From a virus, in the IMG/VR virus record IMGVR_UViG_3300021961_000709, positions 1 through 22,236 of that record: a stretch of 22,236 nt of DNA; one strand, 5' to 3'. Positions 4,143 to 8,382 of this stretch are shown here, piece after piece (position 1 is the stretch's first letter; the number at the start of each line of letters is the position of its first letter). The translations under genes were made by a program, and so were the position numbers. The notes below the pieces were generated by a model. It was not told where the DNA came from. It did no database searches and saw only the letters and a program-made list of their open reading frames with translations.

Positions 4143-4490
4143 TCATTTTTCGTTCAAATAAAAATTGATGGTATCGACAAATTCATCAACCGACCGCACC
4201 ACCACGTATTTGTATCCCGCATCGGTGACGTGGCGTTGCCATTCCTTTTGCGTATCGGTTTGCCGACCCGTGGGTGTTTTCATTTCGATAAACAATGCGG
4301 GGTGTGATTTTGGTACGAACAATGCCAAATCCGCAACCCCAGCCGTGACACCCTCTTGTTTGAGCAAAAAAGCTTCGCGCTTGGAACGATGCCGCCCGTT
4401 GGGTATGTGGATTAACAACGGAGCCAATTTTGGGTATTGGTATCGAAACCATCGAACACATTGGATTTGGATTTGGCTTTCGTCACTCAT
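4143..4490 (-). CDS. VRR-NUC domain nuclease
   Basis: A 115-residue stand-alone VRR-NUC (PD-(D/E)xK superfamily) nuclease. Visible motifs are HIPNGRHRSKREAFLLKQEG (28-47), GVADL with D54, the catalytic strand FIEMK with E69 and K71, and Q81 in TDTQKEWQ, followed by a GYKYVVVRS strand. Known phage members are structure-selective nucleases that resolve branched DNA, or replication-linked nucleases. The ATG at 4490 overlaps the methyltransferase stop as ATGA, hence its choice over the start 129 bases upstream. The context with a methyltransferase is compatible with DNA processing; it is not a typical restriction partner. Confidence 0.92.
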   Translation of the reverse strand: MSDESQIQIQCVRWFRYQYPKLAPLLIHIPNGRHRSKREAFLLKQEGVTAGVADLALFVPKSHPALFIEMKTPTGRQTDTQKEWQRHVTDAGYKYVVVRSVDEFVDTINFYLNEK

Positions 4491-5335
4491 TTTTTGAATA
4501 CCAAAACGTTTTGATGGACTTTGACCAATTTTTGTGATTTCATATTGCCATTGGCACGCATCGATGCGGATGCGATCGAATTTAACAATATGGCTTCGTT
4601 GTAAAATGCCATGCCACATTTTTGAAATGCCCGTATCGTATCGGGAACAAAACCAACATAATTGCCACGTTTATCGCGTATTTCACCAACCACAAAACAC
4701 GCGTATCCATTTGGTTTTAATAGCGAACACGATTTTGCAATAATGGATTCATATGCCGTCATGAAATCGTTGTATTCCATGTTTGAAATATCACCATCCA
4801 AATCACTATAAATTTCCAAATCACCATAGGGTGGGCATGAAAAAACAAAATCGTATTGTGCATTCATGCCATCCAAAACAACATTAGAATCACCAACGTA
4901 CCAATTTGGTTGATTGTTTACCGCCAATATTTGCAACGCTTGTTCACGATTGCTTTCAATTTGTTCGGTGCGTATGTCGATTCCCGTGTATTTGTACCCC
5001 AAATAATTCGCTACAATTCCACGCACGGAACCACCCGCAAATGGATCCAATATTGCACCACCATCATTGCAAAACCATCGGTACAATACTTCACACAATG
5101 CAGGATCAAATATGGAAACATATTCCGCCGTATTGTTTTGCTTTGATTTGGTATCCATATGAATCACGGAAGAATTGCGGCCAACTTCCGATTTGATCCC
5201 CAATGCCTTCCATTGTTTTTGCCGATTTCGCCATGATCCACTTTTTGTATCCAACACGGAAAAAGGTGGTTCAATGAATTTGTCACGCAAAATGACATCC
5301 TCAATAATTGGGTTACCAAACAAATCAACGTTCAC
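4487..5335 (-). CDS. DNA amino-methyltransferase with SCPPY active site
   Basis: A 282-residue methyltransferase. The cofactor loop DPFAGGSVRG (about 97-106) precedes the catalytic motif, giving the gamma-class order. Motif IV reads SCPPYGDLE, a variant of (D/N/S)PPY with Cys before PPY. A FVVGEIRDKRGNYVGFVPD segment follows. It would transfer a methyl group to adenine-N6 or cytosine-N4. It begins at a GTG (5335) that overlaps the upstream stop as GTGA and ends in an ATGA overlap with the VRR-NUC gene, so the three are translationally linked. It is unrelated in layout to the ParB-linked enzyme downstream, so the phage carries two different modification activities. Target unknown. Confidence 0.9.
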   Translation of the reverse strand: MNVDLFGNPIIEDVILRDKFIEPPFSVLDTKSGSWRNRQKQWKALGIKSEVGRNSSVIHMDTKSKQNNTAEYVSIFDPALCEVLYRWFCNDGGAILDPFAGGSVRGIVANYLGYKYTGIDIRTEQIESNREQALQILAVNNQPNWYVGDSNVVLDGMNAQYDFVFSCPPYGDLEIYSDLDGDISNMEYNDFMTAYESIIAKSCSLLKPNGYACFVVGEIRDKRGNYVGFVPDTIRAFQKCGMAFYNEAILLNSIASASMRANGNMKSQKLVKVHQNVLVFKK

Positions 5336-6896: not shown

Positions 6897-7625
6897 TTAA
6901 TCAAACCAACCTTTTTGTGGGGCGTTCCAATCGATGTCGTCCCACCCTTGTTTTTTGGTGTATGGCAATTCATCCATCCAACGGCGTTGATTGATGTATG
7001 TGGTGAAATGGGGTAGGAATTCCAATTTTCCGTTGTCCTTGTGATTTTGGACATATTGTTCAACGTGGCCCATGATGGCTTTCATATCGTCCTTGGAAAG
7101 CTTTCGGAATTTGGCCAACGCGGTTTGTTTGGTTCCCTTTTTCCCGTAGGCATTCCATATGTGTTCGAACAATTCGTCAATTCGATTTTTCGGCCCTTTA
7201 TTAGTTACAGTTCTATTATCAATTACAATTAAATTATCATTTTCATTTTCATTTTCCATATGGGGTTCCATATGCGTTTCCATATGGGCGGCCATATGTG
7301 TGTTCATATGTGGTTTTTCTTCTTTGGTTTTAAGATTACGGCGGCGTGATTCGGTGAAACGTTGGCGTTTGATTTGTTCATCTTCCAATCGTTTATTGAA
7401 CCAAAGTCCGTTTTCATCCTGCGCGAATTTTTTGCGAACCACGGGCCAATGTGCCGCGAAATCGGATTCGCCCAATAACTGCATGATTTCGGATTCGTGC
7501 AAATGGCCGTTGTTGAATTGTGCGTGTAACAAATCCATATACACGCCCTTTTGGTGTCGGTTTAATAGTATGGTTCCAGAATGCCAATCATTCCAATACC
7601 ATAACATTGCGGGGTCTTTTGACAT
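6897..7625 (-). CDS. DUF1376-like replication initiator candidate
   Basis: A 242-residue protein. Residues 1-90 match the DUF1376 (YdaU) pattern: MSKDPAMLWYWNDWHSGT, then a GVYMDLLHAQFNNGHL helix pair and a WFNKRLEDE segment, a winged-helix-like fold linked to phage DNA replication. A basic stretch (QRFTESRRRNLKTK) leads to a linker with five HMxx repeats (106-125) and Asn/Glu repeats. The C-terminal domain (about 150-230) contains WNAYGKKGTKQTALAKFRKL and a FTTYINQRRWMDE end, a pattern common at the C-termini of phage initiators. The ATG at 7625 directly follows a T-run. A GTG at 7649 would add eight residues encoded by the possible terminator and is less likely. It probably melts or marks the origin carried inside its own gene. 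Confidence 0.78.
   Translation of the reverse strand: MSKDPAMLWYWNDWHSGTILLNRHQKGVYMDLLHAQFNNGHLHESEIMQLLGESDFAAHWPVVRKKFAQDENGLWFNKRLEDEQIKRQRFTESRRRNLKTKEEKPHMNTHMAAHMETHMEPHMENENENDNLIVIDNRTVTNKGPKNRIDELFEHIWNAYGKKGTKQTALAKFRKLSKDDMKAIMGHVEQYVQNHKDNGKLEFLPHFTTYINQRRWMDELPYTKKQGWDDIDWNAPQKGWFD
7198..7256. other. A+T-rich stretch beside iterons, candidate unwinding element
   Basis: This stretch is markedly richer in A and T than the surrounding coding sequence. It includes attatcaattacaattaaa and three copies of CATTTT at 6-bp spacing (7238-7255) that abut the first CATATG. It stays in frame, encoding Asn/Glu/Asp-rich linker residues. Its placement on one side of the iteron array matches the usual order of a duplex-unwinding element in phage and plasmid origins. 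Function is inferred from arrangement only. Confidence 0.5.
7257..7310. repeat. Five CATATG iterons at exact 12-bp spacing
   Basis: CATATG begins at 7257, 7269, 7281, 7293 and 7305, so five palindromic cores recur every 12 bases. On the coding strand the unit is roughly CATATGGAAACC and encodes His-Met-x-x five times. The intervening six bases vary (AACACA, GCCGCC, GAAACG, GAACCC, GAAAAT). The array lies in the linker region of the initiator candidate. Iterons inside the initiator gene flanked by A+T-rich DNA are how lambda-type origins are built (lambda O). Alternatively it is only an in-frame codon repeat in a disordered linker. Confidence 0.7.
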
Positions 7626-7653
7626 AAAATAAAAAAGCCCAACGACCACGGGC
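7626..7653 (-). terminator. Weak terminator-like hairpin just before the initiator start
   Basis: The minus strand reads GCCC-N9-GGGC (7653-7637) followed by a run of TTTTTTATTTT that ends at the ATG at 7625. The stem is only four base pairs plus a possible G-T pair, so it is weak on its own. Its position after a larger foldable leader makes an attenuator possible. It could equally just keep the translation start unstructured. Confidence 0.35.
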
Positions 7654-7736
7654 GGCGGGGGAGCGCACGCCCATAGTGTTGAGCAAAAGGTGTTTTCACA
7701 TAGGACACCTCCCCGTGTCCGTGAATCGTTACAATA
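7626..7736 (-). promoter_or_regulatory. Structured 5' leader of the initiator gene
   Basis: A 111-base gap with unusually high G+C. Read on the minus strand it forms a hairpin GGACAC-GGGGAG-GTGTCC (7720-7703). The six-base loop GGGGAG is perfectly complementary to CTCCCC downstream (7663-7658), which would make a pseudoknot. A competing pairing, GGTGT with ACACC followed by TTTT, shares the GTGT arm. A short GCCC/GGGC stem followed by TTTTTTATTTT ends right at the ATG. A weak -7-like TAATATTG sits at 7739-7732. The gap has no credible ORF. The layout suggests attenuation or translational control. Confidence 0.55.
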
Positions 7737-7916
7737 TTAACGCTTTTCTTTTGTTTTGTTTTCGATTTCGTACGGATCAATTCCCTGAAACCTTAACCAT
7801 GCCCGCATTTCGTTGGAAACGTGGCCATGATCATATGGCGTTTTTTGGTCAAACCATGCCACCTCGCGTTCGGCACGTTCGATATCTTGTTCGGTTTTTT
7901 TAGAATGGCAGGTCAT
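7737..7916 (-). CDS. Hypothetical small protein
   Basis: A 59-residue protein starting MTCHSKKTEQDIERAEREVA and ending YEIENKTKEKR. The ATG at 7916 overlaps the stop of the SSB-like gene by 17 bases, so I prefer it to the upstream start at 7994, which would lie inside that gene. The middle contains WFDQKTPYDHGHVSNEMRAW. It is strongly charged, with no recognised motif. It is the last gene before the structured leader. Confidence 0.65.
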   Translation of the reverse strand: MTCHSKKTEQDIERAEREVAWFDQKTPYDHGHVSNEMRAWLRFQGIDPYEIENKTKEKR

Positions 7917-8382
7917 CGCTTGTTCCATATGTTTTTGATTTGATGGCATCGTGTTTGGCATCCTCGGCCAAAGCTTTGGCGGTGTCTTCACCACTCATGA
8001 CGTACAATTCGAATATTTTGGCGAATGTGGTTATTTGATGCAATTTGATTTCCCCGTGAATGCACAAATCCGTTGCGCATTTCAATACACTCATGCGTGT
8101 GATTCGCTTGTCGGTTTCGGGGTCTTTCGCCTTCGGTGCAAATGCTTGTTGTTGCATCTGGGCGGGCTTCACATTGTAAAACGTACGGCCGCCATGTTCA
8201 CGTGATGTGATGGTGTATGCGGATTCGGTACCCACAACGAATTTGTTTTGGTCTTGGGACTTGGACAAATATTCGCCCGTGTCCCCATTTTCGAACGATA
8301 CTTCAAATTTGTACATGGTGCCATACTGGCCATTCCATGTTCCGTTGGCGGCGACATTGGTCACCTTTGATTGCTTTTCCAT
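7900..8382 (-). CDS. Single-stranded DNA-binding-like protein
   Basis: A 160-residue protein. The N-terminal half fits an OB-fold-like beta domain: VTNVAANGTWNGQYGTMYKF, then FENGDTGEYLSKSQDQNKFV and a YTITSREHGGRTFYNVKP strand pair. A helical part follows (KRITRMSVLKCATDL). The C-terminus is TSDDLPF, closely resembling the acidic DDDIPF tip by which bacterial SSB recruits replication and repair proteins. It would coat single-stranded phage DNA during replication and recombination. It overlaps the upstream HTH gene by 22 bases. The tip is seen; the OB fold is inferred from pattern. Confidence 0.8.
   Translation of the reverse strand: MEKQSKVTNVAANGTWNGQYGTMYKFEVSFENGDTGEYLSKSQDQNKFVVGTESAYTITSREHGGRTFYNVKPAQMQQQAFAPKAKDPETDKRITRMSVLKCATDLCIHGEIKLHQITTFAKIFELYVMSGEDTAKALAEDAKHDAIKSKTYGTSDDLPF

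Follow-up and report, generated by a model that had tools for sequence, protein, structure and literature searches.

In pT181-type plasmids, an intrinsic terminator lies directly upstream of the replication initiator gene and is controlled by pairing of the leader. In ColE1, replication control involves the kissing hairpins of RNAI-RNAII, which are joined through a loop-loop helix of 7 bp, and proteins that recognize loop-loop helices are known, Rop of ColE1 among them. In phages P1 and P7, the antirepressor operon is controlled by the RNA C4, which comes from the same transcript and pairs close to the first start codon. In the satellite phage P4, complementary segments in the leader of the replication operon (seqA, seqB, and seqC) cause premature termination (PMC4825925). 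IsrK, from the Salmonella prophage Gifsy-1, is a terminated small RNA whose read-through product is the mRNA of a small ORF and an antirepressor (PMC4825925). Control of the start of replication in phages of the Bacteroidota is almost unstudied.

The locus considered here lies in a viral DNA stretch of 22,236 nucleotides (IMG/VR record IMGVR_UViG_3300021961_000709, positions 1 to 22,236), referred to below as the window. Its portal protein is nearest to that of Nonlabens phage P12024S, which, together with the promoter type described below, suggests a flavobacterial host. The leader RNA is read from the minus strand (7736 to 7626), between an 85-aa ORF of unknown function that ends where the leader begins (7737 to 7994, minus strand) and the ATG of a 242-aa gene (MSKDP...; 6897 to 7625, minus strand). 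Matches to Pfam and PHROG families identify the latter as encoding a DUF1376-type phage primosomal or replication initiation protein (PF07120 [DUF1376], E value of 2e-6, just below the Pfam cut-off; phrog_9327, primosomal protein, 2e-18; phrog_270, replication initiation, 7e-14). The window also contains two DNA methyltransferase genes on the minus strand (4487 to 5335 and 1615 to 2820), one of them fused to a ParB-like N-terminal domain.

A separate feature of the initiator gene is a tandem series of His-Met codon pairs at a spacing of 4 codons, written as CATATG (window 7268 to 7315, within 6897 to 7625, minus strand), which is found in all DUF1376 relatives. Among 219 distinct homologues, the His-Met pairs are encoded by 692 CATATG versus 11 CACATG, and other His codons by 475 CAT versus 378 CAC. 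The bias looks like a DNA-level constraint on a 12-bp palindromic repeat, and by analogy with lambda O these repeats are possibly origin iterons within the initiator gene.

Two hairpins occupy the minus-strand leader from 7725 to 7626. The 5' hairpin (7725 to 7695) has the stem GGACAC/GTGTCC closed by the six-base loop GGGGAG (7720 to 7703; loop, 7714 to 7709), which after an intervening TAT is lengthened by TTCAC/GTGAA (7725 to 7721 with 7699 to 7695). A linker (7694 to 7685) leads to a 20-bp hairpin (7684 to 7637; GCTCAACACTATGGGCGTGCG, loop CTCCCC, CGCCGCCCGTGGTCGTTGGGC), and a U-run (TTTTTTATTTT, including TTTTTT; 7636 to 7626) stands directly before the start codon at 7625. A stable G+C-rich hairpin followed directly by a U-run is the form of an intrinsic terminator; this one (TTTTTT) ends 11 nt before the ATG of the replication gene. 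The first-pass annotation had described a separate short stem with a T-run ending at the start codon. The T-run is there, and the stem is the 3' half of the 20-bp hairpin, which is also all that a simple terminator scan reports (approximately 7653 to 7637). The minimum free energy of the leader is −49.7 kcal/mol, compared with a mean of −34.0 kcal/mol for dinucleotide shuffles (z score of −4.1), and is below that of all 200 shuffles. As judged by eye, reading frames that begin at the ATG-like start of the 5' hairpin lack conservation, and several stop at once (e.g., ATG TAG), so a leader peptide was rejected.

The apical loop of the second hairpin, CTCCCC (7663 to 7658), is complementary to all six bases of the GGGGAG loop, as had been noted from the minus-strand sequence alone. 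Because CTCCCC is itself a hairpin loop, the predicted pairing is a loop-loop kiss between two hairpins and not an H-type pseudoknot: the long-range loop pairing claimed earlier stands, and the loop pseudoknot, whose partner would be free sequence, does not. Upstream, a candidate weak −7 box (TAATATTG; 7739 to 7732, minus strand) overlaps the stop codon of the 85-aa ORF. It has one mismatch to TAnnTTTG, the −7 consensus of sigma-ABfr-type promoters of the Bacteroidota (PMC7366714), and no −33 box was seen upstream of it.

The order of promoter box, 5' hairpin, linker, terminator, T-run, and ATG recurs in hundreds of related phage loci, taken as homologues of the 242-aa gene in viral contigs from metagenomic or phage records. 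The earlier description of a structured leader before the initiator gene is supported. In most relatives, a TAnnTTTG promoter with TTG about 23 nt before it ends about 10 nt before the 5' hairpin. The length of the element is nearly constant, with the T-run mostly 88 to 101 nt after the −7 box, and the spacing from T-run to ATG is mostly 9 to 14 nt. A terminator between the promoter and the first gene, as expected of an attenuator, is clear in these relatives; in the window, the terminator is clear and the promoter is weak.

Homologues lacking any leader between these two genes had been named in advance as a finding that would speak against the element. Some homologues indeed have neither a gap before the DUF1376 gene nor an element that we could find, but in many of those in which the DUF1376 gene adjoins the upstream ORF without a gap (for example, L005, L007, L009, L039, L057, L071, L212, and L257 to L307), the element lies about 250 to 450 nt upstream, immediately preceding the operon's first ORF. 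In some relatives, that first gene encodes an unknown 75-aa product; in others, it is HNH-like. Since the element stays before the first gene even when that gene differs, it is the leader of the operon. In the subgroup with an HNH-like gene (L057, L275, L294, L302, L304, and L307), the 5' loop recurs, exactly or nearly so (TTCGCAGC; ATGCGGG or ATGCGGT), between the T-run and the start codon, and this copy varies along with the loop.

Complementarity between the two loops is far more frequent than expected. When loops within hairpins were compared in divergent leader clusters with a T-tailed hairpin, 33 of 63 had at least 6 Watson-Crick loop pairs, against 4.2 expected from shuffles. A second set of 62 clusters was picked by the box TA[TC]nTT[TC]G, a strong hairpin, a T-run, and a start codon, without regard to the loops, in order to avoid choosing by the answer; perfect complementarity of at least 7 nt linking the 5' part to the interior of the terminator was found in 53 of them, against 6.15 expected. 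Single clusters are often marginal, and the weight lies in the sum; the clusters are also not fully independent. The listed seven-base loop pairs include at least 24 distinct ones, with six- and eight-base pairs in addition; this list was itself selected by complementarity and measures diversity, not significance. GU is common at the 5' side of the kiss. Compared with L353 and L225, L317 has its two loop sequences swapped between the hairpins, which indicates that base pairing and not sequence is kept. An initial duplex-energy test was confounded by stem pieces and is superseded by these counts, and a MAFFT alignment of trimmed loops was set aside because its rows were misaligned.

Alignments of related phage leaders contain the compensatory changes that the first-pass annotation had proposed looking for. 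The kissing helix is 100% paired in alignment A3 (12 leaders) and paired in 92.5% of cells in A2 (16 leaders), and in each of the two, 5 of 7 pairs have changed on both sides. Among 20 close relatives (A4; mean column identity of 89%), the kiss is 100% paired; at 2 of its 8 pairs, both bases have changed, in 8 and 10 sequences and without a single exception. If the partners are shifted against each other by one to three columns, the pairing is lost in all three alignments. Complementary loops with compensatory changes are what a loop-loop RNA interaction should display. An invariant core of the riboswitch type was absent from A2 and A3 beyond A/T-rich linker positions, and loops and stems vary freely.

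In L002, the closest of the divergent homologues (73% protein identity), none of the 37 pairs of the fold made up of hairpin, kiss, and terminator is lost. Eight pairs differ from those of the window and all are still paired, four having changed on both sides and four by a one-sided G-U exchange; in the 5' hairpin, all 11 pairs are kept, with one compensatory change from G-C to A-U. G-U exchanges without mismatches point to a structure that acts as RNA. The competing stem that had been put forward as a switch, GGTGT with ACACC of the linker, is present in the window as AGGTGT/ACACCT and is broken in L002 (AGGTGT/AAACCT), and it was rejected as a functional switch. Another homologue, L003, has a leader identical to that of the window and is for this reason not an independent witness. 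Its gene diverges directly after ATGTCAAAAGACCCCGC, within about 17 nt of the ATG (window 7625; L003 2501). This looks like a recombination border exactly between leader and gene, as if initiator alleles had been swapped under a constant leader.

Structure, conservation, and place are seen directly, and it is very likely that the element is real and is a control element, seemingly not described before, for the start of phage DNA replication. Its novelty, suspected from the start, is consistent with the databases: Rfam gave no match at the gathering threshold in the window, the relatives, or Riemerella phage RAP44, nor did a relaxed search, and a search of the open-licence literature found no description of it. 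Covariance models built here (R1 and R2) were too weak beyond their own clusters for their empty results to mean much, and a DUF1376 family search of 60 bacterial genomes returned no match, controls included.

We favor, with a probability of roughly 0.6, the reading that transcription of the phage replication operon is attenuated in cis by this leader, in which the kiss would set the terminating fraction and hence the supply of initiator and its timing. The idea in the first-pass annotation that the element sets the initiator dose is reasonable as an inference. For termination, the direction of the effect, and any action in trans, we infer the following. A polymerase that initiates a short way upstream, or that comes in from the preceding gene, would mostly stop at the U-run and release an RNA of about 100 nt. 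The kiss would form once the terminator loop emerges and would set the fraction of polymerases that terminate; replication genes would be made only from read-through transcripts, so that the kiss would set how much initiator is supplied and when. Through the same loops, the short terminated RNA may in addition target new leaders in trans.

Attenuation is the simplest reading because transcripts from the leader promoter must pass the terminator, and the stretch from T-run to ATG is too short to hold another promoter. The kiss, as the conserved part, presumably sets the read-through fraction. Its effect on termination does not follow from the fold, since kiss and terminator are not mutually exclusive; we hold only weakly that it favors termination, on the grounds that the two are geometrically compatible, as in RNAI-RNAII complexes. 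The weakness of the window's own promoter speaks against attenuation, and the RNA of the window may for this reason start elsewhere. Classical attenuators usually, although not always, have a conserved antiterminator that excludes the terminator; none was found here, the AGGTGT/ACACCT stem being lost in L002.

The element also occurs in named phages. Tenacibaculum phage JQ has it, with a 10-bp loop pairing, before the ORF that leads into its replication genes. Riemerella phage RAP44 carries a pair of long forms; what comes directly after each of them is a small ORF and then a gene annotated as an anti-repressor. Five such leaders of antirepressor operons occur in three records: RAP44 (L391; 13711 to 13863, plus strand, and 30567 to 30426, minus strand), L411 (667 to 821 and 1003 to 1162), and L404 (1122 to 1269). 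In all five, a second copy of the 5' segment stands at the start codon (e.g., ATGTTAATCCAAG), and both copies are complementary to the interior of the terminator; the sequence differs from leader to leader. We take these long forms as related to the short form in design, though not necessarily by descent. A third complementary copy as a general rule was rejected, as it occurs only in antirepressor leaders and one HNH-like subgroup. Among leaders of DUF1376 genes, there are also long forms (L095, L121, L034, L035, L038, L047, L052, and L339) in which the 5' end pairs over about 10 to 20 nt with a branched terminator interior instead of forming a 7-nt kiss.

The main rival for the function, which these antirepressor leaders would fit, is a trans-acting immunity or incompatibility RNA, like P4 CI or P1 C4, with which a resident phage shuts off an incoming operon: phage-specific loops of its short RNA would pair with the incoming leader of a replication or antirepressor operon, and loop diversity would be specificity. 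The position of the long forms before a small ORF and an antirepressor, the five different repeated segments, which recall seqA-seqB-seqC of P4 (PMC4825925), and the strong diversification of the loops all speak for such a role. However, the third copy at the start codon is absent from the window and from most DUF1376 leaders, and with complementary loops in one molecule, pairing in trans must compete with the kiss in cis. In addition, a single DUF1376 relative turned up in a scan of genome contigs and no leader match in a sample of 198 genomes, which, both searches being weak, hints at non-integrating phages. We regard immunity in trans as unlikely as the main function.

A further rival involves a protein. 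The kissing complex, as the best conserved feature and with GU common at its 5' side, might be the landing site of a Rop-like or N-like protein of phage or host that brings about antitermination or autoregulation, but no co-varying partner protein was identified and the loops are too variable for recognition by sequence, which makes this improbable. The promoter, compact fold, terminator, and nearly constant length would equally suit a free-standing small RNA gene with host or phage targets elsewhere, placed before the replication gene merely by compact packing. Against this, the element stays immediately upstream of the first operon gene while that gene changes, the gene must be read through it for want of room for another promoter, and the loops co-vary with each other, so that outside targets would have to co-vary too; we consider it quite improbable. 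A pair of DNA-level hairpins at a replication origin or primosome assembly site is scarcely credible, since, despite the location at the border of the initiator gene and the iteron-like CATATG repeats within it, the T-run is strand specific with a promoter in front, G-U pairs replace Watson-Crick pairs (in A2 and between the window and L002), and the same layout precedes antirepressor operons.

The terminator-loop kiss could be a new way of tuning intrinsic termination, and a compact element whose matched loops form a mutable, built-in specificity right before an initiator gene offers a handle on replication timing, copy control, and superinfection that can be put to the test. We advance more tentatively, and with some doubt, the wider idea that such self-pairing leaders form a new class of RNAs, widely spread among Bacteroidota phages, in which the terminator loop kisses the 5' end of the leader. 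Their loop pairs would have diversified into dozens of specificities, letting each phage control its replication or antirepressor operon, and possibly exclude relatives from it, via a short terminated RNA.

Each of the described systems shares part of this design. As in pT181-type plasmids, the terminator of the window stands directly upstream of a replication initiator gene; the 5' segment of the element, however, pairs with the terminator loop and not with an arm, and no antisense promoter was seen. Control by an antisense RNA of the pT181 type was rejected, as −7 boxes on the opposite strand are not enriched (2 versus 3.8 expected). Unlike RNAI-RNAII, the element has its two hairpins within a single RNA, the terminator being one of the two. 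C4 resembles only the antirepressor-type relatives; its fold is different, the leaders have no Rfam match, and the window has no antirepressor. The P4 leader likewise precedes a replication operon, and the antirepressor-type relatives carry three complementary segments as it does, but CI RNA is processed out of the leader, acts in trans, and is not a terminator loop, and the window lacks the third segment. The gene order controlled by IsrK, a small ORF and an antirepressor, is matched by the RAP44 and L411 relatives, although IsrK has an unrelated structure, belongs to another host phylum, and acts on translation via a helix with orf45, whereas the element in the window precedes a DUF1376 primosomal gene and has loop-loop pairing with the terminator as its key feature. 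A role of this kind would extend the logic of P4 CI and IsrK to a phylum for which we found no known examples. Because the antirepressor-type leaders recall IsrK and P4 CI RNA, regulation of early phage operons by leader-derived RNA appears to be of a known kind, of which this element would be a structurally new variant with a logic like that of P4 CI and IsrK.
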